Notes under the pieces: generated by a model
What the model was told of the DNA's origin: nothing
Databases searched by the model: none
Seen by the model: the letters and a program-made list of their open reading frames with translations, nothing else
In this document: piece after piece, positions 52,274-64,000 of the stretch
How the letters are laid out: every line of letters starts with the position of its first letter
Numbering within the stretch: the stretch's first letter is position 1
Position numbers and translations under genes: made by a program
Assembly (NCBI RefSeq): GCF_900107215.1
Contig: NZ_FNPD01000007.1
Location: 62,001-126,000, forward strand
Source: Acetomicrobium thermoterrenum DSM 13490
GTDB lineage: Bacteria > Synergistota > Synergistia > Synergistales > Acetomicrobiaceae
Direction of reading: 5' to 3'
DNA length: 64,000 nt

Positions 52274-53536
52274 ATGAGTTGCGGAGGAATTTTTTGTGAG
52301 GAGGCTTTAAGGAGCTTAAATTGCTATCTCGCCGACCCCAACAGCAAGCTGGTAAAGGACATATCGAACGTCATCAAGAAGTATGGATCCCCTTCGGAGA
52401 TAAACGAAAGGGCCTGCGAGGCAAGAAAGGTGCCGAATTTGCTCCAGCGCTTGAGCAGGATCAACTCGCCCTACCTAAAGGACCTGGAATGGCTGATGGA
52501 ACAAAAGGAAAAGAGGGCCTTCGTATCCCTAAGCGAGTTTCGGGCAAAGGTGTTGGGCGAAAAGGCCTCATCGATGCAGTTTGACGAGTCAACCGCCGTC
52601 ACCCTTGAGATTAGCGCCCTTCAATACTTCCCCTGGTTCATAAGCGAGGCAAAAAGGGCTATAGAGAAGCGAGAGCTCATGCCCGGACGCTACATAAGGG
52701 TAAGGAACATGAAGGAACAGGAGCACGACAACGGAGACATCATGGCCGTCGCAGCCGCCGCCCAGATTGCAGGGGCGAGCTGGGTCGAGACCCTGGACAC
52801 AAAGGGAACGGACGGATCCAACATACACTTGGGAGGGCCTGAGACCATAACGGGCTACTTCACGGGCGTGGGGCAGCCCAACGACCACCCTCTTCAGTGG
52901 GTGGACGAGTACCTTTACTACGCCACCAATTACGGAGTCCGTGAGGTCTTGAACATCAATCCCGGGTCGGTGCTGGCGGGGTTGATACTCTACAGGCTGG
53001 GAGTCGACATAAAATTCAAGATCTCAGTTTTCATGGGAACCGACAACCTTTATTACCTTTTTATCATATTCGCCCTTGCGAAGCTGCTTGCCCGAGAGGA
53101 CGGATCCACTGCCCTGTCGGGGATAAATCTCGCAAATTCCGTAAACGTAAAGACCTTCCTAGACATGGCCAAGATGCGGAGGGATATGGGCCTTGAGGAC
53201 AAGGTAAGGATAGAACATCACATAACGGAGGCCTACAAGAGCATCATTATACAGCCTTACTGCCGAAGAGACGACCTGCTTTTGGCAGTAGAGCACGGCA
53301 TACCCAACATCTCAGCAAAACATGAGGGCGGCGACCCGGAAGACGAAGAAAAGCTCGATCATCCTTCCGACATACTCGACTATTTCAGGGCTAAAAGCGA
53401 AATCGAGGAAACAGGAGACTTTGAAAAGCTCGAACAAAACTACATTTACAAGCACATCGCCTTGAACCGCACGGCTGAAGAGCTCACCAAGAGAGGATTT
53501 TCCTTCGTAGCCGCCACGGGATTGCACTCAAGGTAA
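52274..53536 (+). CDS. unrecognised 420-residue enzyme-like protein
   Basis: I do not recognise the family. The protein is soluble, without signal or membrane segments. Segments that look conserved include RVRNMKEQEHDNGDIMAVA near residue 145, WVETLDTKGTDGSNIHLGG near 172, TGYFTGVGQPNDHPLQW near 196 and RIEHHITEAYKS near 315, a pattern rich in His, Asp, Asn and Gly that suggests a metal- or cofactor-dependent barrel enzyme; CGGIFCEE at the N-terminus adds two Cys. GGAGG lies 9 bases upstream of the ATG. Tight spacing to panB and a shared terminator imply an operon. Assignment to CoA or one-carbon metabolism would be speculation. Confidence 0.8.
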   Translation: MSCGGIFCEEALRSLNCYLADPNSKLVKDISNVIKKYGSPSEINERACEARKVPNLLQRLSRINSPYLKDLEWLMEQKEKRAFVSLSEFRAKVLGEKASSMQFDESTAVTLEISALQYFPWFISEAKRAIEKRELMPGRYIRVRNMKEQEHDNGDIMAVAAAAQIAGASWVETLDTKGTDGSNIHLGGPETITGYFTGVGQPNDHPLQWVDEYLYYATNYGVREVLNINPGSVLAGLILYRLGVDIKFKISVFMGTDNLYYLFIIFALAKLLAREDGSTALSGINLANSVNVKTFLDMAKMRRDMGLEDKVRIEHHITEAYKSIIIQPYCRRDDLLLAVEHGIPNISAKHEGGDPEDEEKLDHPSDILDYFRAKSEIEETGDFEKLEQNYIYKHIALNRTAEELTKRGFSFVAATGLHSR

Positions 53537-53610: not shown

Positions 53611-54762
53611 TTATTTGGTCACCGCTTCGGTGGCAGGAATCGCCTTCGGTTCTGTCTCTGAAAAGCCCTTCACCAACACCGGAATGATGATAAGAGGAAT
53701 GGCAAGCACCCCAAGGGTGCCGTAACCTTTGGCGATCAACGGGAGAAGGCCAAAAAGCGCAATACCCCACGTTACCGCCACATACACCAGTGAGGACATG
53801 ATGTGCGTGGCTCTAGCTCCCTTAGCCGTAGCCTTGTCGCCTAAACGCTCCTGCAGCGCCACAACGATCCTTTTAGCTCCACCGTAAACACAGCTGACCC
53901 CCGTAGATATGACAGCCAAAAGTATGAGCCCCGATACTATTCCACCGGCTGCCCCCTCTCCGACGGAATGACGGGCTATGTAAATGATGGGAACCACTTC
54001 GTTGTTTATGGCAGGATAATGTGTCAATGCCCCCGCAGTTGCCAGCCATAAAATGACAGCATTTACGATAAAACCGTAAAGAGAAGCTCTAAAGACATCT
54101 TGTTTTGTTTTAAGCACATCGGCAACGGATACAAAAGCCCCTATGAGGCAAACCTGAAAGCCCGCATAGGTAATCGCTTTCCATACGGCTCCTCCCGCTC
54201 CCTTGGGAGAAGGGGCTTGAAGAATTACCTGTTTTAATAGCGGGAAATTTACCACAAGGTTAGTGGCATAAACTGCCACCATACCACCTATTATCAAAAC
54301 GGCCATAACCGTCGCGGCGCGTCTTACCACCTCTGCGCCAAATATGGTAAGCAAAAGTATTAAAACCGCAATTATAATGGTGTTTAAAACATAGGGAGAG
54401 CCGAAAAGCTCCTTCAGAACCGACCCTCCCGTTGCAAAGGCTACGGATGTGGCAGTGAGTAGGATCAGGTTGTACATTATGGAGTTTGCCGTTCCAAAAA
54501 CCGCACTATAACGTCCATAAAACTTCTTCCCCCAGGAATGATAGTCGAAAGCCCGATGAACGACCGAACCCTTCCAGGCGAAATAATAGACAAATGCCAT
54601 TACCGTCAGGGCAATAAAGGGTGTGAAAATGGCATACCGGCCATATGATACGTAGAAATCAACCAATTGCCTGCCCGAAGAAAAACCACCGCCAAAATGT
54701 GTCGTAAACCATACAAAGGCCAACGAAAGCGCAGCAGCCCTCGTCCCCGTCCCCTTCGTCAT
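53611..54762 (-). CDS. YkvI-like membrane protein (LeuT-fold transporter relative)
   Basis: 383 residues with about ten hydrophobic segments. It opens with LSLAFVWFTTHFGGGFSSGRQ, where the unwound GGGFSSG of the first helix matches the substrate site of LeuT/APC-fold carriers, and resembles B. subtilis YkvI. The substrate is unknown. Located between a bidirectional terminator and the GlcD-type gene, whose stop lies 61 bases upstream, so the two may form one message with the transporter feeding the oxidase. Confidence 0.8.
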   Translation of the reverse strand: MTKGTGTRAAALSLAFVWFTTHFGGGFSSGRQLVDFYVSYGRYAIFTPFIALTVMAFVYYFAWKGSVVHRAFDYHSWGKKFYGRYSAVFGTANSIMYNLILLTATSVAFATGGSVLKELFGSPYVLNTIIIAVLILLLTIFGAEVVRRAATVMAVLIIGGMVAVYATNLVVNFPLLKQVILQAPSPKGAGGAVWKAITYAGFQVCLIGAFVSVADVLKTKQDVFRASLYGFIVNAVILWLATAGALTHYPAINNEVVPIIYIARHSVGEGAAGGIVSGLILLAVISTGVSCVYGGAKRIVVALQERLGDKATAKGARATHIMSSLVYVAVTWGIALFGLLPLIAKGYGTLGVLAIPLIIIPVLVKGFSETEPKAIPATEAVTK

Positions 54763-54823: not shown

Positions 54824-56242
54824 TCACTCAAAGAGCTTGCCAGGGTTTAAGATCCCGTTGGGATCGAAGGCCCTTTTTATCCCTCGCATCACCTCAAGCT
54901 TGCTTTTCGCCTCGTATTTCATGAAGGTATGTTTCTTTAAGAAACCGACGCCGTGCTCGCCACTTCCGACTCCTCCCAAGCTTATGGCCACGCCTATGAG
55001 CTCATCCACTATGTTCTCAACGAAGTCGGGCCATTCCTCAAGGGGGATGCGGTCAGGCTTGAAAAATAGCGGATGGATGTTTCCGTCGGCGATATGGCCT
55101 CCCAGGGCGATCGTAATGTCGTATTTCTTTGCTGCTTCTTCTACGGCCTTAACCATCTCCGATATCTTTGACATAGGCACGACCATGTCTCCGCTGAGGG
55201 AAGCGTTGGGATCCACAGCGCGTACGGCCTCTGCAAAGCTTTCCCTCACCTTCCAGATGTTTCGCGACTCCGTGCTGCTTTCAGCGGTGAAGACTTCCAT
55301 GGCGCCGTGTTCCAGGCAGGTCTCGCCCACTTTTTCGATGTACATATCCAGCTGTTCGGGCGTCTGTCCCTCCACCTGGATTATGAGGAAGGCCTTCGCC
55401 TCATCCTGCATGGGAAATGTAGTGTTGTGGTACTGGGTGGCACATTTCGCGGAGAGCTGGTCCATGAACTCGCAGGCCATTAATACAACCCCAGCCCTTA
55501 AAATTGCAGCGACTGCCTCGACTGCCTCCTCTATGGAGGGGAAGGGCGCCAGAAAGGTGACGGTGTCTCCCGGTGCCGGCTCGAGGTTTAATATGGCCTT
55601 GGTGACCACTCCAAGCGTCCCCTCGGAGCCTATTATGGTCTGTAGCAGGTCGTAGCCCCAGGTCTGCTTTCTTATCCTACCGCCAAGCTCCAGGACGTCT
55701 CCCGTGGGAAGCACGACCTCGATTCCAAGGACGTGTCGCCTAGTGCTTCCGTATCGAATGACCTTGGCCCCGCCGGCATTGGTGGCGATGTTGCCTCCTA
55801 TGAAGCTCGTCTCCGTGCTCATGGGGTATCCTGCGTACATGAGGCCTTCTTTGAGGACCATCTGGCATAAGTCGTTGGTGACCACGCCCGGCTCGACGAC
55901 GGCAACTCGGTTTATCTTGTCTATCTCAAGCACTCTGTTCATCCTCTCAAGGGAGAGAACTATCCCGCCCTCTATGGGAATGGCGCCTCCGGCGATCCCG
56001 CTTCCCGCACCCCTTGCCGTAACGGGTATTCTTTCCCTGTTGGCCAACTTCATCACGCTAGATACCTGCTGAGTATTCTCAGGTTTTACCACCACATCCG
56101 GCATCCTGGCATAAACCTTGCCCGATTCATCGTAAGAATAAGCCTCAATGGCTAACTCATCTGTTGCTACGTTATCCGGTCCCGCAATATTCTTAAGCTC
56201 TGCAATAATTTCTGGTGTAACCTTGTTATAATTTTCTCCCAA
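54824..56242 (-). CDS. FAD-linked 2-hydroxyacid oxidase/dehydrogenase, GlcD type
   Basis: About 472 residues. The PCMH-type FAD domain shows VTARGAGSGIAGGAIP near residue 75, GNIATNAGGAKVIRYG near 150 and WGYDLLQTIIGSEGTLGVVT near 195; the C-terminal FAD-oxidase domain ends with GSGEHGVGFLKK and DPNGILNPGKLF. Members oxidise glycolate, D-lactate or D-2-hydroxyglutarate. A TTG at 56242, 8 bases after GGGGAG, is taken as start; GTGs at 56248 and 56251 are too close to that site. No GlcE/GlcF or Fe-S partner is adjacent. Confidence 0.9.
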   Translation of the reverse strand: MGENYNKVTPEIIAELKNIAGPDNVATDELAIEAYSYDESGKVYARMPDVVVKPENTQQVSSVMKLANRERIPVTARGAGSGIAGGAIPIEGGIVLSLERMNRVLEIDKINRVAVVEPGVVTNDLCQMVLKEGLMYAGYPMSTETSFIGGNIATNAGGAKVIRYGSTRRHVLGIEVVLPTGDVLELGGRIRKQTWGYDLLQTIIGSEGTLGVVTKAILNLEPAPGDTVTFLAPFPSIEEAVEAVAAILRAGVVLMACEFMDQLSAKCATQYHNTTFPMQDEAKAFLIIQVEGQTPEQLDMYIEKVGETCLEHGAMEVFTAESSTESRNIWKVRESFAEAVRAVDPNASLSGDMVVPMSKISEMVKAVEEAAKKYDITIALGGHIADGNIHPLFFKPDRIPLEEWPDFVENIVDELIGVAISLGGVGSGEHGVGFLKKHTFMKYEAKSKLEVMRGIKRAFDPNGILNPGKLFE

Positions 56243-56370
56243 TGACACCACTCCCCTTCATCTTTATCATAATTTAGTTGCCGATTATAATACTTAATCG
56301 TCAATTTTTCCAGTGTTTCAAGAAATTGTAATTGTTTCATTAATGCGCCTTCTTTCTTAAAACAAACTTA

Positions 56371-56417: not shown

Positions 56418-57263
56418 TTACTCTCGGTCTTCGTAAACTCCATATTGGGCCCAAGCTCTTTCGAGCTCCTGCAACCGCTTTGTAGTGAGCTCTCCTAAGT
56501 TATCGGCCACCTTTAAAAGAACTGCATTGACGAGTCCAACGGGTATTACAAAGGAATCGATGAAGGAAATATGAGAACAGGGCGCGTAGACCAAAATATC
56601 GGCATGGGGCGCAAGAGGGCTTAAGGGAGAATCCGTTATGGCAGCCGTCTTCTTTCCCAATTCACGTGCTAATGTCAAACACTGAACGGTCCCTTTCGTG
56701 TAGCGGGGAAAGCTTATTCCTATAAAGAGGCTATCGCCCCTTGCATTAATGACATTTTCCAGGAACATATCGGCATTCAGCACATGAGTTTCTGGGATAA
56801 ACCAAGAAAGGTAGGCACTAAAGTAGTAGGCCAGCCCCTTAGCGCTTCTAAGCCCTACGATATTTATGCAAGATGACTCGCAAATTGCCCGGGCAAGGTC
56901 CTCTATTGGTCTGTCGTCCAGTGTAGCTAGGATATTTATTCCCTTTTGGAGATCCTGACGAATGACGCTTTGAATAAAGTTGTTTCCTTCGCCTACCGTC
57001 TGGTAAAGCTGATGCCTTTCCAAAGCCTTAAGCTGGTCCAACAACGATTCCTGCAAAGCCTCCCTGAACTCTGGGTAACCAGGGAAGCCCAGAGAAGAGG
57101 CAAATCTTATGACCGTGGCTTCGCTAACTCCAACGACTTTGCCCAATTCAGAGGCGGTAAGGCCAACGGCCTCGCGGGCATGCTCCAAGACATAAAGTGC
57201 CACCGCTTTCTGACCTCTGGGCAATTGTTCCATCTTGCTTTGAATTATTTCCCTTAGGGACAA
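56418..57263 (-). CDS. RpiR-family transcriptional regulator
   Basis: 281 residues: an N-terminal helix-turn-helix (about 1-77; TASELGKVVGVSEATVIRFASSLGF) and a SIS domain (about 125-255; NIVGLRSAKGLAYYFSAYLSWF) that would bind a phosphorylated or other effector. It directly follows the thiolase operon on the same strand after a hairpin, so control of that catabolic operon is likely but not shown. RpiR proteins usually regulate sugar-phosphate genes; relatives beside TRAP transporters are also known. Confidence 0.88.
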   Translation of the reverse strand: MSLREIIQSKMEQLPRGQKAVALYVLEHAREAVGLTASELGKVVGVSEATVIRFASSLGFPGYPEFREALQESLLDQLKALERHQLYQTVGEGNNFIQSVIRQDLQKGINILATLDDRPIEDLARAICESSCINIVGLRSAKGLAYYFSAYLSWFIPETHVLNADMFLENVINARGDSLFIGISFPRYTKGTVQCLTLARELGKKTAAITDSPLSPLAPHADILVYAPCSHISFIDSFVIPVGLVNAVLLKVADNLGELTTKRLQELERAWAQYGVYEDRE

Positions 57264-57290: not shown

Positions 57291-57333
57291 TAAAGCGGGG
57301 CATGGCGCTTATTATAATCGCATAATGCCCCGC
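57291..57333 (-). terminator. hairpin between thiolase and regulator genes
   Basis: GCGGGGCAT (57295-57303) and ATGCCCCGC (57325-57333) form a nine-pair stem around a 21-base AT-rich loop, 27 bases after the thiolase stop. The minus-strand T run is short (TTTA), so partial read-through into the regulator gene is plausible. Confidence 0.6.
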
Positions 57334-57360: not shown

Positions 57361-58545
57361 TTACTTCAAGCGTCGAACGACAATGGCAACTCCCTGGCCT
57401 CCGCCAATGCAGGCACTTGCAACTCCCAACTCCTTATCATGATTTCGCAAAGCGTAAAGTAAGGTAGTGAGTATCTTAGCCCCCGTAGCTCCGATGGGGT
57501 GTCCCAGAGCTATGGCACCCCCGTGGACGTTTAATTTTTCAATATCGAAGGGCATGACACGGTGACAGGCTATGACCTGAGCCGCAAAGGCCTCGTTGAT
57601 TTCTATTAAATCCATATCATCAAGGGATAACCCCGCTCTTTCAAGCGCTTTCGGGATCGCCAAAGTGGGGGACAGGCCAAATCGCTCGGCTTCGAGCGCT
57701 ACCGCCGCATATCCGATGATTTCGGCCATGGGCTCCAAACCGTTGGCCTTCGCAAAATCTTCATCTGCTATAACGAGGGCGCTTCCCGCATCGCACAAAG
57801 CGGAACTCGAACCGGCAGTGATGGTCCCTCCTTCTTTAAAGACGGGCGGAAGCTTGGCCAATGCTTCCATGCTCGTGTCAGGCCGGGGAATCTCATCCTT
57901 ATCGATAACTATTTCGCCTTTCTTCCTGTCCTTATAAGACAGAGGAACGATCTCGTCCTTAAAAAGTCCTTCCTCCGTCGCTTTGCAGGCCTTTCTGTGG
58001 CTGTTTAAAGAAAATTCGTCCTGTTCTTCTCTCGTGATGTGAAATTCCTCAGCCAAACTTTCGGTGGCTTCTCCCATCAACATCCCCGCAAGGGGACATA
58101 AAAAACCGTCCTTTTGAAGCACGTCCAGGGCATTTTTATCTCCCATCCTCATGCCCCACCTGGCCTCCGGCAAAATATAGGGGACGTTGGAAGCGCTCTC
58201 CATCCCTCCTCCAACTATGACTTTAGCATCGCCCAAACGTATACGGTCGGCGCCGAGCATTATCGTCCTTATGCCCGATCCGCAACGAATGTTGACAGTG
58301 AAAGCAGGGATTTTTTGAGGTAACCCGGCTTTGAACATTGCAATCCTGGCCGGATTTGCCCCCACGCCGGCTTGCCAACCGTTACCCATTATAACTTCCT
58401 CTATATCCTCTATTGACACTCCGCTGCGCTTTACAGCCTCTTTGATAGCTACAGCTCCCAGATCCGAAGCCTCAAACCTTGATAATCCGCCGCCGAACTT
58501 GCCTCCTGCGGTCCTGCATGCGCTCAGTATAACTACCCTTTTCAT
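57361..58545 (-). CDS. acetyl-CoA acetyltransferase (thiolase)
   Basis: 394 residues, normal for thiolase II. Acylated Cys88 in NIRCGSGIRTIM, the NEAFA motif near 315, the active His in GGAIALGHPIGATGAKIL and the second Cys in ASACIGGGQG are all present. In the degradative direction it splits a 3-oxoacyl-CoA with CoA; with acetoacetyl-CoA it gives two acetyl-CoA. Its ATG overlaps the CoA-transferase B stop by four bases, coupling the two. Confidence 0.94.
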   Translation of the reverse strand: MKRVVILSACRTAGGKFGGGLSRFEASDLGAVAIKEAVKRSGVSIEDIEEVIMGNGWQAGVGANPARIAMFKAGLPQKIPAFTVNIRCGSGIRTIMLGADRIRLGDAKVIVGGGMESASNVPYILPEARWGMRMGDKNALDVLQKDGFLCPLAGMLMGEATESLAEEFHITREEQDEFSLNSHRKACKATEEGLFKDEIVPLSYKDRKKGEIVIDKDEIPRPDTSMEALAKLPPVFKEGGTITAGSSSALCDAGSALVIADEDFAKANGLEPMAEIIGYAAVALEAERFGLSPTLAIPKALERAGLSLDDMDLIEINEAFAAQVIACHRVMPFDIEKLNVHGGAIALGHPIGATGAKILTTLLYALRNHDKELGVASACIGGGQGVAIVVRRLK

Positions 58546-59228
58546 GCCTTTTCCTCCTCCGTTCCTTGCATGGTGATGAGAGGATCAGCCACGGTAAAAT
58601 CGGCCTCGGTAATTGCCCTGATTTCGTCAAGGGTCGTTTCGGGAGCGATCTCCAACAACTTCAATTGCCCTTTTTCTATCGAAAATACGGCATACTCGGT
58701 CACTATCAACTTGACCACACCTTTGGCAGTCAGGGGCAGGGTGCACTTTCTCAATATCTTGGCCTCACCCTTCTTGGTGGTATGCGTCGTGGCGATGATG
58801 ACCCTGCGCGCTCCAACCACCAAGTCCATGGCACCACCCATGCCCGGCACGATTTTGCCGGGCACCATCCAGTTCGCAAGATCTCCTTCTTGGCTCACCT
58901 GGAGGGCGCCTAAAACCGTAGCATCCACATGCCCTCCTCGAATAAGACCAAAACTTAAATCGCTGGCTACGAAACAACCTCCGGGCAGTATGGTAAGCGG
59001 CCTGCCCCCTGCACCTATGAACCTGAGATCGGGTTTGTCCGGTGCCGGTCCTGCGCCAACAGCCCCATTTTCCGTTTGAAAGATAACCCGCACATCTTCG
59101 GGGATATAGTCGGAAACTAGAGTAGGTATTCCGATGCCCAGGTTCACAACATCTCCATCGTGAAATTCCCTAGCTATGCGGCGGGCTATCCTTTGTCTAA
59201 CCATCTCTTCATTAAGTTCTATTGGCAT
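58542..59228 (-). CDS. 3-oxoacid CoA-transferase, subunit B
   Basis: 228 residues. The catalytic Glu53 lies in QTENGAVGAG, preceded by VNLGIGIPTLV; later GGAMDLVVGARRVIIATTHT is typical of the family. It forms a heterodimer or heterotetramer with subunit A and moves CoA from acetyl-CoA or succinyl-CoA to a 3-oxoacid such as acetoacetate. It overlaps subunit A by 17 bases and thiolase by four. Confidence 0.94.
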   Translation of the reverse strand: MPIELNEEMVRQRIARRIAREFHDGDVVNLGIGIPTLVSDYIPEDVRVIFQTENGAVGAGPAPDKPDLRFIGAGGRPLTILPGGCFVASDLSFGLIRGGHVDATVLGALQVSQEGDLANWMVPGKIVPGMGGAMDLVVGARRVIIATTHTTKKGEAKILRKCTLPLTAKGVVKLIVTEYAVFSIEKGQLKLLEIAPETTLDEIRAITEADFTVADPLITMQGTEEEKA

Positions 59229-59901
59229 AATAGTTATCCCCCTTTACGACTAATGCATCTATTAAAATTCCCGGGGTCACGATCTCATTGGGATCCAGCT
59301 CTCCCACTTCCAGCACGCTGTCCACTTCCGCTACCACATAATCGGCAGCGGTAGCCATTATGGGGTTGAAATTTCTGTTGGTACCAAAATATGTAAGGTT
59401 TCCCATTCTGTCGGCTTGATATGCTCTTATTAAGGCTACATTAGCCCTGAGAGGGAGCTCCAGAAGGTACTTCTTTCCATCTATCTCCAGGACCTGCTTT
59501 CCTTCCTCCACTACAGTGCCTACTCCCGTTGGAGTAAGTATGCCGCCTAAACCGAAGCCACCTGCTCTTATCCTCTCTACAAAAGTCCCCTGGGGACAGA
59601 GTTCCAGTTCCAGCTTCCCCTCCATGTAAAACTGCCCAGTCTTTTTGTTAAGTCCAACGTGGGAAGCAACGACCTTTTTTACCTGTCCATTCGCCACTAA
59701 TTTTCCATGTCCCACATCTTCGTAAGCAGAGTCGTTTGCTATCAAGGTTAACTCCCCAACGCCGGACTCCACCAATGCGTCGACCAAAGTATAGGGAATG
59801 CCTCCGTAATTAAAACCACCTATTATTACGCTCATTCCTGGCTTAATGCATTTCACGGCCTCCGCCGCCGATAAGACAGGCTTTATTACCTTTTTAGCCA
59901 A
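59212..59901 (-). CDS. 3-oxoacid CoA-transferase, subunit A
   Basis: 229 residues from the TTG at 59901, which is preceded by GGGAGGTG at 8 bases; an ATG at 59958 would overlap the transporter gene and add an unrelated extension. The CoA-transferase landmark MSVIIGGFNYGGIPYTLVDAL near residue 22 and FGLGGILTPTGVGTVVEEGK near 115 are present. Partner of the subunit B encoded next. The upstream fused TRAP permease ends 46 bases before this start. Confidence 0.93.
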   Translation of the reverse strand: MAKKVIKPVLSAAEAVKCIKPGMSVIIGGFNYGGIPYTLVDALVESGVGELTLIANDSAYEDVGHGKLVANGQVKKVVASHVGLNKKTGQFYMEGKLELELCPQGTFVERIRAGGFGLGGILTPTGVGTVVEEGKQVLEIDGKKYLLELPLRANVALIRAYQADRMGNLTYFGTNRNFNPIMATAADYVVAEVDSVLEVGELDPNEIVTPGILIDALVVKGDNYYANRT

Positions 59902-59947
59902 AATATTGCACCTCCCTGCCCCAATGGGCAAATATTTATCTGTATAT

Positions 59948-61897
59948 TTATACGACATATTGCCTTAAGCGAACCTTTTGAAGCAAGAAAACTACCACGA
60001 TAACCGTTACGGCCAACAAATTGGCCAATAAAGAGGGATATATAATGGCAAAGGGCAATACTATGAAGGTCAATCTTTCGACGATGTTGAGCTTGGATAG
60101 GAAATGGCCCTGTATTCCTGCAGATAAGGCAATGACTGCCAGTATCGCCGTTACACAGCCTAATATGATGTGCAATATGTCTCCCTTTAAAAGCAAGTAA
60201 GGATTGTATACGAACATATAAGGGACCAAAAAACCGGCCGCAGCTGTAGCTAGCGCAGTAAAACCGGTCTTCATGGGATTAGATTTAGCTATGCCCGAAG
60301 CGGCATAGGTGGCCAAAGCAACGGGTGGTGTGACATCTGCCAAAACTCCAAAATAAAGACAAAAAAGGTGAGCCGAAAACATTGGAACGCCCATCTGCGC
60401 CAATGCAGGGGCAGCAAGGGTAGAAGTAATAATGTACTGAGCCGTCGTCGGCACTCCCATGCCAAGTATGATCGACCCAATCATGGTGAGTATCAGGGCA
60501 AAGGGAAGGATCCCGTGAGAGAGGCTCAACACGAATGAAGAAAAGGCAAGCCCCACTCCGGTAATGCCGATAACTCCGATGATTAATCCCGAACAAGCAC
60601 AAGCTGCAGCAACTTCCACTGCTCCAATGGCACCGTTTATCAAGGCATCGACGATTCTTTTTGGTGTCATGCGATATTCTTTCTTGCCTCCCCAGGACAC
60701 CACAACCAAAAGCACCAAAGACCAGAAGACAGCTTTTACGGGCGAATAACCAAGGGCTAAAAAGATGACCAACGTTACTATCGGCAAGAGCAAATGCCAT
60801 CCTTCTTTGAAGACAATTTTAAGCTTTGGCATGTTTTCAGCGCTGAATTTTTGTAATCCTATTCTTCCCGAACGAAAATGCACCATAAACCATATCGAGG
60901 CAAAATATAAAGTGGCTGGCACAGCTGCTGCTACAACTATTTCCCAATAAGAAACGCCTAAAAATTGGGCCATGATAAATGCTGCCGCCCCCATAACCGG
61001 AGGCATGACCTGCCCTCCTGTAGATGCAGCTGCGACGACGGCTCCGGAAAATTCGTTTTTATAACCCGACTGCTTCATAAGGGGAATTGTAAAAGCCCCC
61101 GTTGTCACTGCATTGGCAACGGAACTTCCGGAGACGGTCCCCATTAAACCGCTTGCGATTACCGCCGCCTTGCCGGGACCTCCCTGGCTTCGACCGGTGA
61201 GAGCAACGGCTAAATCGATAAAAAACTTGCCTGCCCCCGAGGAGCTTAAAAAAGCGCCAAACAAAACGAAGAGAAATATGAATGAGGCAGAAACGCCCAA
61301 GGGAACGCCGAAAATGCCGTCGGTGCGAAGATATTCGAAGGGAGCGAGCTCCTTGAGAGGAAATCCTCCATGACCTAAAAGCCCAGGAAAATAGGGTCCG
61401 AAAAGGGCGTATATCAGAGCAACTATGGCGACAATTGGCAAAGGCCAACCCATTGAACGCCTCGCTCCCTCGATGACCAAAATTATCATCATTAAGCCAA
61501 GATATATATCAGACGAGGTTGGCATCCCTTCGCGTTGAGATATGGCGTCCCAATTTAAGAGTATATTTAAACAACCTATGGCCAAAAGGATGGCGAAACC
61601 CCAGTCCCATATATCTATCTTATCCTTCGGCCTTCCCTTCGAAATGGGATACAGCAAAAAGAGGAGAACGCCCATAAACATCCAGTGCACGCCCCTTTGA
61701 TACATGGCTGGCAAAAGACCATATAAAGCGGTGTATAGATGAAATAACGAAGCAGATATGGCAATTCCGGCCACTAGCCACCATTGCCACCCTTTCAATT
61801 GACGTGCCTTTGATTCCACTTCCAGAATCTCGCTCTTGTTGGGCTCATCAAGGGATGAAGATATTTTAGGGTCATTATTGCGATCCTCGGTTACCAT
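59948..61897 (-). CDS. TRAP transporter fused permease (4TM/12TM)
   Basis: About 649 residues joining a DctQ-like four-segment part (about 35-140) to a DctM-like twelve-segment part, as usual for TAXI-TRAP systems. VSGSSVANAVTTGAFTIPLMK near 260, GGQVMPPVMGAAAFIMA near 295 and ADVTPPVALATYAASGIAKS near 520 are family signatures. The ATG at 61897 has GGGGG 9 bases upstream; an upstream GTG-like start at 61936 would run through the intercistronic hairpin. It works with the TAXI receptor encoded just upstream. Confidence 0.93.
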   Translation of the reverse strand: MVTEDRNNDPKISSSLDEPNKSEILEVESKARQLKGWQWWLVAGIAISASLFHLYTALYGLLPAMYQRGVHWMFMGVLLFLLYPISKGRPKDKIDIWDWGFAILLAIGCLNILLNWDAISQREGMPTSSDIYLGLMMIILVIEGARRSMGWPLPIVAIVALIYALFGPYFPGLLGHGGFPLKELAPFEYLRTDGIFGVPLGVSASFIFLFVLFGAFLSSSGAGKFFIDLAVALTGRSQGGPGKAAVIASGLMGTVSGSSVANAVTTGAFTIPLMKQSGYKNEFSGAVVAAASTGGQVMPPVMGAAAFIMAQFLGVSYWEIVVAAAVPATLYFASIWFMVHFRSGRIGLQKFSAENMPKLKIVFKEGWHLLLPIVTLVIFLALGYSPVKAVFWSLVLLVVVSWGGKKEYRMTPKRIVDALINGAIGAVEVAAACACSGLIIGVIGITGVGLAFSSFVLSLSHGILPFALILTMIGSIILGMGVPTTAQYIITSTLAAPALAQMGVPMFSAHLFCLYFGVLADVTPPVALATYAASGIAKSNPMKTGFTALATAAAGFLVPYMFVYNPYLLLKGDILHIILGCVTAILAVIALSAGIQGHFLSKLNIVERLTFIVLPFAIIYPSLLANLLAVTVIVVVFLLQKVRLRQYVV

Positions 61898-61922
61898 AAA
61901 AATGCCCCCTTTACTGTGAAGG

Positions 61923-61958
61923 AAAAATTGGCCCAACCGATATATCGCCGGCTGGGCC
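61923..61958 (-). terminator. hairpin with T run after the TAXI binding-protein gene
   Basis: On the minus strand GGCCCAGCCGG (61958-61948) pairs with 61940-61930 over 11 positions, two of them G-T, and is followed by AATTTTT (T run at 61927-61923). It lies 12 bases after the binding-protein stop and before the permease start, acting as a partial terminator between them. Confidence 0.7.
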
Positions 61959-61970
61959 TCTGAACTGTTC

Positions 61971-62930
61971 TTATTCTACAGGTACCTCTATGCCGTGCTC
62001 TTTAAAGTATTTTGCGGCCCCCGGATGGACAGGTATAATAGCAATGCTTGCCTCTTCGGGTACAAAATGCTCGGCCTGTGGAATGGATTTCATGATCTCT
62101 TCCCTATTTTCTATGATGGTCTTGACGAGCTTGTAGGCCAGTTCTTCATCCATGTCCTTGTTAACAACCAGGAAGTTGCCGTCGGCAACGGTGAGAACGT
62201 CTTCTTCTTTACCTGGATAGGTTCCTTTGGGGATTTTATAGGGAAACATGAAGGGAAATTTCTCTACTACCTTATCGACGACATCCTGTGGAATGGGTAT
62301 CATGACTATATCGCGAACAGCGGCCACTTCCAGCACTGCAGACCCGGGAGTGGCGAAGTTCCAAAAGACTACATCCACATTTCCGTCTTTAAGGGCCATT
62401 ACGCCCTCTGGTTGAGTCAGCTGTTGTTTTTTAATGTCCTTATCCGGATCTATTCCTGCCGCTTCCAGGATCATGTTCGTAAGAACCTGGTCGCCTCCGC
62501 CGGGCGCGCCGACGGAAACTCTTTTACCAATAATGTCCTCGAACTTGGTTATTCCCGTACCTTTCGTCGTCACTATGTGATGAGGCGCCGGATACATATG
62601 CATCAGTATTCGCAGGGGCAAAGCACCATCTTCTTCAAAGGCCTCCGTTCCGGTGTAGGCTTGGTAGAGTGTGGAGCCCATGGACATCCCTATATGCGCT
62701 CTACCTGAGGCCACAAGACGACAATTTTCCCTCGACGCGGAAGTAGCCCTGGATGTGGCTTTTACGTCGATGCCGGCCTTTGTCAAAATTTCCGCCATAA
62801 CCCCTCCTAAAGGATAGTATGTACCTCCAATCCCTCCTGATGCTATGGTGATATAAGTGACGGCGTAAGCTGTGCCCACAAAGGCTACCAAAGATAACAA
62901 AGCAACTGCCAATAACGTCCTTTTTTTCAT
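61971..62930 (-). CDS. TAXI-family TRAP substrate-binding protein
   Basis: 319-residue periplasmic receptor. A signal peptide ends near residue 23 (GTAYA-V), followed by the family's ITIASGGIGGTYYPLGGVMAEIL opening and the middle SVGAPGGGDQVLTNMILEAAG. The few TAXI proteins studied bind glutamate, 2-oxoglutarate or related acids. It is encoded between a class III aminotransferase and the fused permease, so an amino or keto acid is likely. The following hairpin probably raises its expression over the permease. Confidence 0.93.
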   Translation of the reverse strand: MKKRTLLAVALLSLVAFVGTAYAVTYITIASGGIGGTYYPLGGVMAEILTKAGIDVKATSRATSASRENCRLVASGRAHIGMSMGSTLYQAYTGTEAFEEDGALPLRILMHMYPAPHHIVTTKGTGITKFEDIIGKRVSVGAPGGGDQVLTNMILEAAGIDPDKDIKKQQLTQPEGVMALKDGNVDVVFWNFATPGSAVLEVAAVRDIVMIPIPQDVVDKVVEKFPFMFPYKIPKGTYPGKEEDVLTVADGNFLVVNKDMDEELAYKLVKTIIENREEIMKSIPQAEHFVPEEASIAIIPVHPGAAKYFKEHGIEVPVE

Positions 62931-63030
62931 AACCTACTCTCCTCCCTATTGTTTATTGTTTATTTTTTCGTCACATCAAAATCAACTAATCACTCTATAT
63001 CTATAGGCAACTTAAACCCAAAGGTGCACT

Positions 63031-64000
63031 TTAAAGCAACTTTTCAGCCGTCGCCGCTAATCCTTCTTCTAACTTGTTCAACAATTCATCTACCTGCTCG
63101 GCGGTTATGACGAGAGGAGGACCGATGAGGAAGTTGTCGCCATCTATGCCGTCCACCATCCCTCCGCCAGGGTAGATGACAAGCCCCCTATCGAGGCATT
63201 CCTTCATCGCCAACGCGGCAGCGCCTTTGCTTTTAGGGAATGGCTTTTTGCTTTCTTTATCCATGACCAGCTCTACGCCCCACATAAGCCCCCTTCCTCT
63301 TACATCTCCCACTATTGAATTGGAAGCCTCTATCTCTTTAAGGCCCCTGCCAAGTTTTTCGCCCTGAAGGCGAGCGTTAGTTACTAAATCGTGCTTTTTC
63401 ATGTATCGTATGACGGCAGCTGTAGCAGCACCGCTTACTGGATTTCCGTTGTAGGTGTGGCCATGGACAAAGGCACCGCTTCCGTTACGTATCGTCTCGG
63501 CGATCTCATTTCTAATGATGATTCCACCCGTAGGGACATAACCGGCGGCCATGCCCTTCGCCGTTGCGATTATGTCAGGGGTTACGTTCCAGTGGTTCAC
63601 GCAGAAGTTGACACCGGTCCTGCCGAAGCCAGTCATCACTTCGTCGGCAATGAGCAAAATGTCATAACGGTCGCATATTTCACGAACTATAGGCCAGTAT
63701 TCGTCGGGGGGGACCAACGCCCCAATGGCAGAACCGACCATGGGTTCGGCTATGAAGGCAGAGATATATTGGGAGCCGATATTTTTTATGATGTCCTCCA
63801 GCTGATGGGCGCAGGCAATGCCACATTCAGGATATTTCTTGCCAAAGGGACAGCGATAACAGTAATGAGCCACGATCTTGGGGTACTCTTTGAAGAGCGG
63901 AGAGTAGATGCGACGTCGGGGTATGCTGCCTCCGACTGCCATGGTACCAATTGTACTTCCATGATAGGAATTCCATCTGGCTACGATAAGTGCTTTAGAA
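63031..64000 (-). CDS. class III PLP aminotransferase, N-terminus beyond the window
   Basis: At least 322 residues; the frame is open to the window edge, and residues there (ARWNSYHGSTIG) match the internal class III motif, so the true start lies beyond 64000. DEVMTGFGRTG with the PLP-contacting Asp, the PLP lysine in IATAKGMAAGYVPTGG and the HGHTYNGNPVSGAA segment are clear. An insertion with four Cys (YCYRCPFGKKYPECGIAC) marks a subgroup and may bind metal. Likely substrates are omega- or beta-amino acids. It begins the TAXI-TRAP/CoA-transferase/thiolase gene string. Confidence 0.9.
   Translation of the reverse strand, partial: SKALIVARWNSYHGSTIGTMAVGGSIPRRRIYSPLFKEYPKIVAHYCYRCPFGKKYPECGIACAHQLEDIIKNIGSQYISAFIAEPMVGSAIGALVPPDEYWPIVREICDRYDILLIADEVMTGFGRTGVNFCVNHWNVTPDIIATAKGMAAGYVPTGGIIIRNEIAETIRNGSGAFVHGHTYNGNPVSGAATAAVIRYMKKHDLVTNARLQGEKLGRGLKEIEASNSIVGDVRGRGLMWGVELVMDKESKKPFPKSKGAAALAMKECLDRGLVIYPGGGMVDGIDGDNFLIGPPLVITAEQVDELLNKLEEGLAATAEKLL

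Follow-up and report, generated by a model that had tools for sequence, protein, structure and literature searches.

A putative RpiR-controlled operon for beta-amino acid catabolism conserved across the Synergistota

What compound is consumed by a gene run in which a transporter, an aminotransferase, a CoA-transferase and a thiolase follow one another? We addressed this question at one end of a 64,000-nucleotide stretch of Acetomicrobium thermoterrenum DSM 13490 (the window, G000:C7:62001-126000, where G000 is the 1.97-Mb host genome). The original prediction, made from the sequence of this window, had described uptake, transamination, CoA transfer and thiolysis of a beta-amino acid such as 3-aminobutyrate. 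All of the genes that it named are present on the minus strand as described, transcribed in the order class III aminotransferase (AT), TAXI receptor, TRAP permease, CoA-transferase subunits A (CtA) and B (CtB), thiolase and RpiR regulator (Table 1), and their family assignments hold in NCBIfam and Pfam profile searches. On balance, we favor the interpretation that this run is an operon for the breakdown of a beta-amino acid under RpiR control, with a phylum-wide distribution in the Synergistota. The substrate class is probably a beta-amino acid, a point on which we are slightly more confident than on the operon as a whole, while the proposal of 3-aminobutyrate or a close short neutral homologue as the substrate itself is tentative.

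To determine how widely the grouping is conserved, we searched 185 Synergistota genomes for AT and obtained 92 matches in 71 genomes and 34 of 62 genera. Seventy-five matches had at least 44% identity; removing five from Acetomicrobium and one inside locus L098 left 69 loci, and 11 of the 17 weaker matches (33 to 37% identity, from a set at 31 to 39%) served as controls. Neighboring genes were called with a simple codon-score script and no published gene finder. The loci are not independent, as some overlap (L078/L129 and L084/L130) and many come from the same genus, and we therefore also counted genera and families. Near AT we found a CoA-transferase in 56 of the 69 loci, a thiolase in 51, a TAXI receptor in 53, a TRAP permease in 51 and an RpiR gene in 56. 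When the count was restricted to the 46 loci flanked on each side by 5.5 kb or more, 44 had a CoA-transferase, 41 a thiolase, 41 both, 37 a TAXI receptor and 36 an RpiR gene. No control locus had a CoA-transferase, thiolase, TAXI or RpiR gene (0/11 for each), and one of the 11 had a TRAP gene. AT, CoA-transferase and thiolase occurred together in 51 of the 69 loci overall, in 24 of 29 genera and in 9 of 10 families. All-against-all clustering of the neighbors, with no prior choice of genes, returned the same seven families with 49 to 69 members each, followed by families of 5 to 9 members. The host genome has a single PF01144 CoA-transferase pair and a single strong PF00108 thiolase match (278.8 bits; the other match scores 26.4), both located in the run, together with four TAXI genes and four class III AT genes, of which the run holds one each. 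As the sole CoA-transferase pair and the sole strong thiolase lie in the run, and as the gene order recurs across the phylum, the grouping is not due to chance.

AT itself belongs to PF00202 (311 bits) and passes NCBIfam NF005685/PRK07483 (491.4 bits against a cut-off of 485), whose label, "aspartate aminotransferase family," is generic and implies no substrate. Its PLP (pyridoxal phosphate) lysine, K271, is kept in 64/64 clade rows, 16/16 plasmid rows and 11/11 control rows. Four arginines (R8, R112, R131 and R152) are typical of the clade; with no ligand-bound relative in which to place them, we draw no substrate from them. Both CoA-transferase subunits score above their NCBIfam cut-offs, and CtB has the glutamate of the ENG motif (its QTENG aligns with QSENG of solved enzymes), placing the pair among the 3-oxoacid CoA-transferases (AtoDA/Sco). 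The nearest solved relatives are acetate CoA-transferase alpha (5dbn/1k6d) for CtA and butyrate-acetoacetate CoA-transferase B (8k9h) for CtB. The thiolase (TIGR01930, 456.5 bits against a cut-off of 240.55), in which the Cys/His/Cys catalytic motifs align, is nearest to the solved acetyl-CoA acetyltransferases 4wyr/4n44, which we take to be of the ThlA type (best score, 415 bits; BktB, 312).

Because AT is joined to a CoA-transferase and a thiolase, which together need a beta-keto acid, such an acid is most likely its product, and a beta-keto acid coming from an aminotransferase would imply a beta-amino acid as the substrate. Gene context thus strongly supports the predicted role of AT as a beta-amino acid transaminase. 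In several families, AT or its paralogues lie beside a second CoA-transferase/thiolase set, whose CtA, CtB and thiolase have median identities of 44, 50 and 40% to the first set and of 68, 68 and 61% within the second. That two different sets serve the same two steps beside AT again points to a beta-keto acid. The genomes with L078/L129 and L084/L130 each carry two neighboring AT/CoA-transferase/thiolase clusters that differ in type.

A further indication came from 16 plasmid loci of AT homologues (42 to 44% identity), picked for variety among the 40 listed of 1,925 records. A BKACE-family gene adjoins AT in six of these (L032, L147, L148, L149, L151 and L153), which also argues for a beta-keto acid, as BKACEs convert a free beta-keto acid and acetyl-CoA to acetoacetate and an acyl-CoA. 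On the plasmid of Paracoccus sp. SMMA_5_TC (L151:3262-10671), an RpiR gene is followed by TAXI, TRAP, USP, AT and BKACE genes; by analogy, this is the logic of the window operon with a BKACE-family gene replacing CoA-transferase and thiolase. In L153, AT and BKACE diverge across an RpiR gene. Other partners include two CoA-transferase genes beside AT on a haloarchaeal plasmid (L028) and thiolase with AMP-binding or acyl-CoA synthetase genes in L029 and L032. Separately, three plasmids of Rhizobium, Sinorhizobium and Phyllobacterium (L031, L034 and L152) share the order RpiR-AT-CMD-family gene, with an Lrp regulator and peptidase/amidase or ABC genes nearby; the CMD-family gene is a possible third partner of AT.

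The BKACE linkage also bears on the order of the steps. The CoA-transferase could instead act first, generating a beta-aminoacyl-CoA that AT would transaminate to a beta-ketoacyl-CoA for the thiolase to split, which is the same pathway in another order. Kat, from the lysine fermentation of Cloacimonas, provides a precedent: this class III AT acts on CoA esters only, converts 3-aminobutyryl-CoA to acetoacetyl-CoA and is encoded beside a thiolase gene (PMC3149608). However, BKACE-linked homologues imply that a free beta-keto acid is made, and Kat resembles HemL and falls outside the cluster of most class III enzymes (PMC3149608), whereas the best NCBIfam groups for the window AT are PRK06917 and PRK07483; in this comparison at the level of family groups, the 25 families listed of 69 do not include HemL. 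We therefore consider the CoA-first order unlikely. Kat beside a thiolase gene is nonetheless the nearest published logic to that of the window, sharing adjacent genes for a class III AT and an acetoacetyl-CoA thiolase, conversion of a beta-amino to a beta-keto compound and acetyl-CoA as the end product; the window set adds a CoA-transferase and an importer. The host genome does not appear to carry out lysine fermentation of the Kam/Kdd/Kce/Kal or Kat type, and we rejected this assignment: KamA reached 21.2 bits against a cut-off of 199.2, and a search for BKACE gave no matches. KamD also gave none, in a search in which the control was equally silent.

In the pathway that we propose, the TAXI receptor would capture the substrate extracellularly, and import would proceed through the fused TRAP permease. 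AT would then move the beta-amino group onto a 2-oxo acid, and the AtoDA-type CoA-transferase would activate the resulting beta-keto acid, an acyl-CoA serving as CoA donor. Thiolysis with CoA would finally release acetyl-CoA and a shortened acyl-CoA, itself usable as the next CoA donor. With 3-aminobutyrate, acetoacetate would become acetoacetyl-CoA and then two acetyl-CoA. Acetoacetate, and hence 3-aminobutyrate or a close short homologue, is favored by the relatives of the CoA-transferase and thiolase and by the short-chain fatty acid (SCFA; AtoE-type) transporter gene that follows the thiolase gene in L070 (PF02667, 457 bits). 3-Aminobutyrate fits best, but the CoA-transferase and thiolase families are broad and this choice is still a guess; beta-leucine, beta-lysine and beta-glutamate are other possible substrates. 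The pathway class put forward in the original prediction is supported by phylum-wide co-conservation, the second CoA-transferase/thiolase set and the BKACE exchange in Alphaproteobacteria; its choice of 3-aminobutyrate and its transamination of the free acid before CoA transfer are at present proposals. The same enzymes might also run backward, condensing acetyl-CoA to acetoacetate and aminating this to 3-aminobutyrate, which the cell would store, use osmotically or export, as thiolases, CoA-transferases and aminotransferases are reversible and the thiolase has acetyl-CoA acetyltransferases as its closest kin. We regard this as very unlikely, given that a binding protein-dependent uptake system is co-encoded in most loci and that thiolase condensation faces a steep equilibrium.

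Several observations weigh against the proposed catabolism of a beta-amino acid. Loci L090 and L133 have full flanks and no CoA-transferase. A search of G011, a 99% complete Acetomicrobium genome, gave no AT match at an E value of 1e-60 or below, indicating that the operon is dispensable within the genus, in which AT relatives at 98% identity occur, including in A. hydrogeniformans (L013-L015). Eight of the 16 plasmid loci (L030, L031, L033, L034, L035, L146, L150 and L152, of which L033 and L146 have TAXI and TRAP genes) show no annotated CoA-transferase, thiolase or BKACE nearby in PLSDB annotation, which is incomplete, and the wider AT family may therefore have other substrates. Compared with the solved enzyme, the AT-linked BKACEs have an arginine, invariant among them, in place of a glutamate and an asparagine in place of an aspartate beside a metal-binding glutamate, so that their reaction may be non-canonical. 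Finally, the nearest solved relatives of AT are not known beta-amino acid enzymes and include putrescine and amine transaminases. This last point would suit a different arrangement, in which acetoacetate or another keto acid is imported for the CoA-transferase and thiolase while AT, although co-regulated, acts elsewhere on an omega-amino acid or diamine. The AtoDA-type enzymes and the transporter beside the thiolase in L070 fit such import as well. Yet AT remains linked to the CoA-transferase and thiolase in loci that have no TAXI/TRAP pair (L117, L121 and L123), and the shared neighbors include no aldehyde dehydrogenase, an enzyme required for the use of an omega-amino substrate; this arrangement is improbable in our estimation.

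The BKACE substitutions might reflect anionic substrates or altered chemistry, and they hint that the beta-keto acid of the alphaproteobacterial systems, whose TAXI receptors retain Gln and Glu, could be anionic, for example 3-oxoglutarate derived from beta-glutamate. The glutamate of the solved BKACE that aligns with Arg14 presumably contacts the substrate amine. We did not carry this hint over to the window, as the ATs are only 42 to 44% identical.

We also asked what the receptor might bind. It scores 298.1 bits against TIGR02122 (cut-off, 84.35) and 263.8 bits against PF16868, and the permease scores 711 bits against TIGR02123 (cut-off, 320.65), identifying a TAXI-family TRAP transporter. 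In VcGluP, the ligand amine is held by Tyr45, Gln93, Glu125 and the Met201 main chain and the alpha-carboxylate by Ser75, Gly156 and a water at Asp157; mutation of Tyr45 and Gln93 lowers affinity 213- and 990-fold, respectively (PMC11574862). By alignment to VcGluP, the window receptor has Tyr38, Met84, Ala115, Asn191 and Trp190 along with Ser66, Gly146 and Asp147. Among 45 operon orthologues, Met and Ala are each found in 44 and Asn in all 45, and the Trp190 position is Trp in 35 and Phe in 10; of the residues carried over, Tyr is present in 43, Ser and Gly in 45 each, and the last position is Asp in 38 and Asn in 7. Hence, the receptor shares its family and the Tyr, Ser and Gly at the carboxylate end with VcGluP and TtGluBP, but differs in Gln93/Glu125 to Met/Ala, in Met201 to Asn and in its gene linkage to CoA-transferase and thiolase. 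Gln and Glu are both kept by one host paralogue (L001) and by three plasmid receptors, among them that of L151, in which the pair is as in the glutamate receptors, and neither is present in the other host paralogues, L003 and L004.

The carboxylate end is thus conserved, and the alpha-amine end has been lost in a uniform way. The receptor is therefore probably not a glutamate receptor; its dedicated ligand would be an acid, and probably one other than an L-alpha-amino acid of the glutamate kind. These residues speak against ordinary glutamate or ornithine use, with glutamate as the receptor's ligand and ornithine or a semialdehyde as the substrate of AT, the outcome named in advance as one that would overturn the beta-amino acid proposal. 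Although glutamate receptors are among the closest TAXI proteins of solved structure (PMC11574862), the loss of the amine-holding pair and the lack of any role for thiolase and CoA-transferase make such use highly improbable.

To examine control of the operon, we considered a perfect 22-bp palindrome, ATATGAAGGATATCCTTCATAT, which lies 84 bases before the AT start (G000:C7:126452-126473) and has the core TGAAGGAWWTCCTTCA. Since the motif was discovered in the window, its own genus does not count as evidence, and the 69 loci in which we tested it exclude Acetomicrobium. Matches to TGAAGGAWWTCCTTCA with at most two mismatches occurred in the 250 bases upstream of AT in 17 of the 69 loci, in 0 of 11 controls and in 0 of 2,725 shuffled regions. 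Across the 69 loci (1.04 Mb), 55 of the 76 sites with at most three mismatches fell within 450 bases upstream of AT or RpiR, mostly before RpiR where that gene precedes AT, and the host genome has one place with fewer than three mismatches to the 18-base pattern. Such a distribution would be expected of a local RpiR regulator that also controls its own gene. The regulator has HTH_6 and SIS domains, linkage to AT in 56 of 69 loci and a conserved palindromic site, consistent with local regulation of the RpiR/MurR type. The proposal that RpiR regulates the operon is therefore supported by linkage and by the shared palindrome; RpiR is likely the operon's own regulator and probably represses it by binding the palindrome ahead of the first gene.

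The description of the route as TAXI-linked holds for Acetomicrobium, but the link is not invariant: families f11 and f12 have the order RpiR-AT-CtA-CtB-thiolase without a linked TAXI/TRAP pair (L118 has a divergent TAXI, at 35%). A tree of 63 ATs places most of the Synergistota rows in a single clade (33 rows, 99/98), within which f11/f12 are the first branch, and 13 alphaproteobacterial rows in another (100/99); the fork uniting L132-L134 with Natronorubrum and Rhodococcus, all on long branches, is weak and could be spurious. As f11/f12 branch first and are without the linked pair, the enzyme trio looks older than its TAXI/TRAP linkage.

Each part of the operon is of a known type, and our searches of open-licence PMC literature returned no title or abstract opening that describes the combination of AT, CoA-transferase, thiolase, TAXI/TRAP and RpiR as a route for a free beta-amino acid. 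The ato operon of Escherichia coli (AtoDAEB) shares the AtoD/AtoA-like CoA-transferase and thiolase, and an AtoE-type transporter also adjoins the set in L070; the ato operon is without an aminotransferase or TAXI/TRAP genes, and its regulator differs from the RpiR set. BKACE pathways likewise handle free beta-keto acids, and BKACEs adjoin homologues of the window AT, but in the host genome CoA-transferase and thiolase take that place. The beta-valine pathway of Pseudomonas SBV1 shares beta-amino acid catabolism via CoA esters and uses a CoA-dependent ammonia-lyase in place of an aminotransferase (PMC4619459).

More broadly, these ATs may represent an undescribed beta-amino acid transaminase family in Synergistota, Alphaproteobacteria and probably haloarchaea and actinobacteria, with the product passed to CoA-transferase and thiolase or to BKACE. 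In Synergistota, the family would enable fermentation of a free beta-amino acid and be accompanied by a new class of TAXI ligand (carboxylate site kept, alpha-amine site lost), and some genomes would have two routes (L129/L130 beside L078/L084), presumably for two substrates. We consider this wider proposal about as likely as not. If correct, it would explain what a large set of proteins labeled "aspartate aminotransferase family" do, extend the ligands of the little-studied TAXI receptors by a class other than glutamate, and show how anaerobes could gain energy from free beta-amino acids, such as those that serve methanogens as osmolytes or arise in lysine fermentation, without an ATP cost for activation.

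Table 1. Features of the gene run, in window positions
Feature	Position	Strand	Profile or remark
Class III aminotransferase (AT)	63031..64000	-	C-terminal 323 codons inside window
TAXI-family TRAP solute receptor	61971..62930	-	TIGR02122, PF16868
Fused TRAP 4TM/12TM permease	59948..61936	-	TIGR02123
CoA-transferase subunit A (CtA, AtoD-like)	59212..59958	-	TIGR02429
CoA-transferase subunit B (CtB, AtoA-like)	58542..59228	-	TIGR02428
Acetyl-CoA acetyltransferase-type thiolase	57361..58545	-	TIGR01930
Inverted repeat GCGGGGCAT ... ATGCCCCGC, 21-base loop, GC-rich	57295..57333	-	by eye; thiolase-RpiR gap
RpiR-family regulator (HTH_6 + SIS), TTG start	56418..57263	-	PF01418, PF01380

Reading beyond position 64,000 completed AT to 445 amino acids and identified it as the first gene of the run, starting at G000:C7:126368 (window position 64368, 368 bases past the window end; L006:32-1369, minus strand). 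The gene upstream (L006:1559-2746) resembles a membrane protein and is seemingly unrelated. The true start of the TRAP permease, judged by eye, is likely an internal ATG about 13 codons downstream of the called start. Within the main run, the three most downstream gene junctions overlap (TRAP/CtA by 11 bases, CtA/CtB by 17 and CtB/thiolase by 4), which suggests coupled translation. The thiolase-to-RpiR gap is 97 bases, and its inverted repeat is a possible terminator or attenuator; RpiR may therefore have partly separate transcription.

Beyond RpiR, a GlcD-like FAD-linked oxidase (54824-56251, minus strand) and a membrane protein that we take to be YkvI-like (53611-54762, minus strand) were considered as operon members and rejected, as they occur in 0 of the 69 loci; both are found in the three Acetomicrobium loci L013-L015. 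The oxidase is paired with RpiR only in Acetomicrobium, and an FAD-linked oxidase also lies 4 kb from AT in Rhodococcus (L029). The membrane protein has no Pfam or NCBIfam match and a distant likeness to a membrane protein beside AT in L132 (20%, E value of 2e-7). Further along, on the plus strand (52274-53536), a 420-amino-acid protein with no Pfam, NCBIfam or PDB match is conserved in Acetomicrobium and in L016 (86%).

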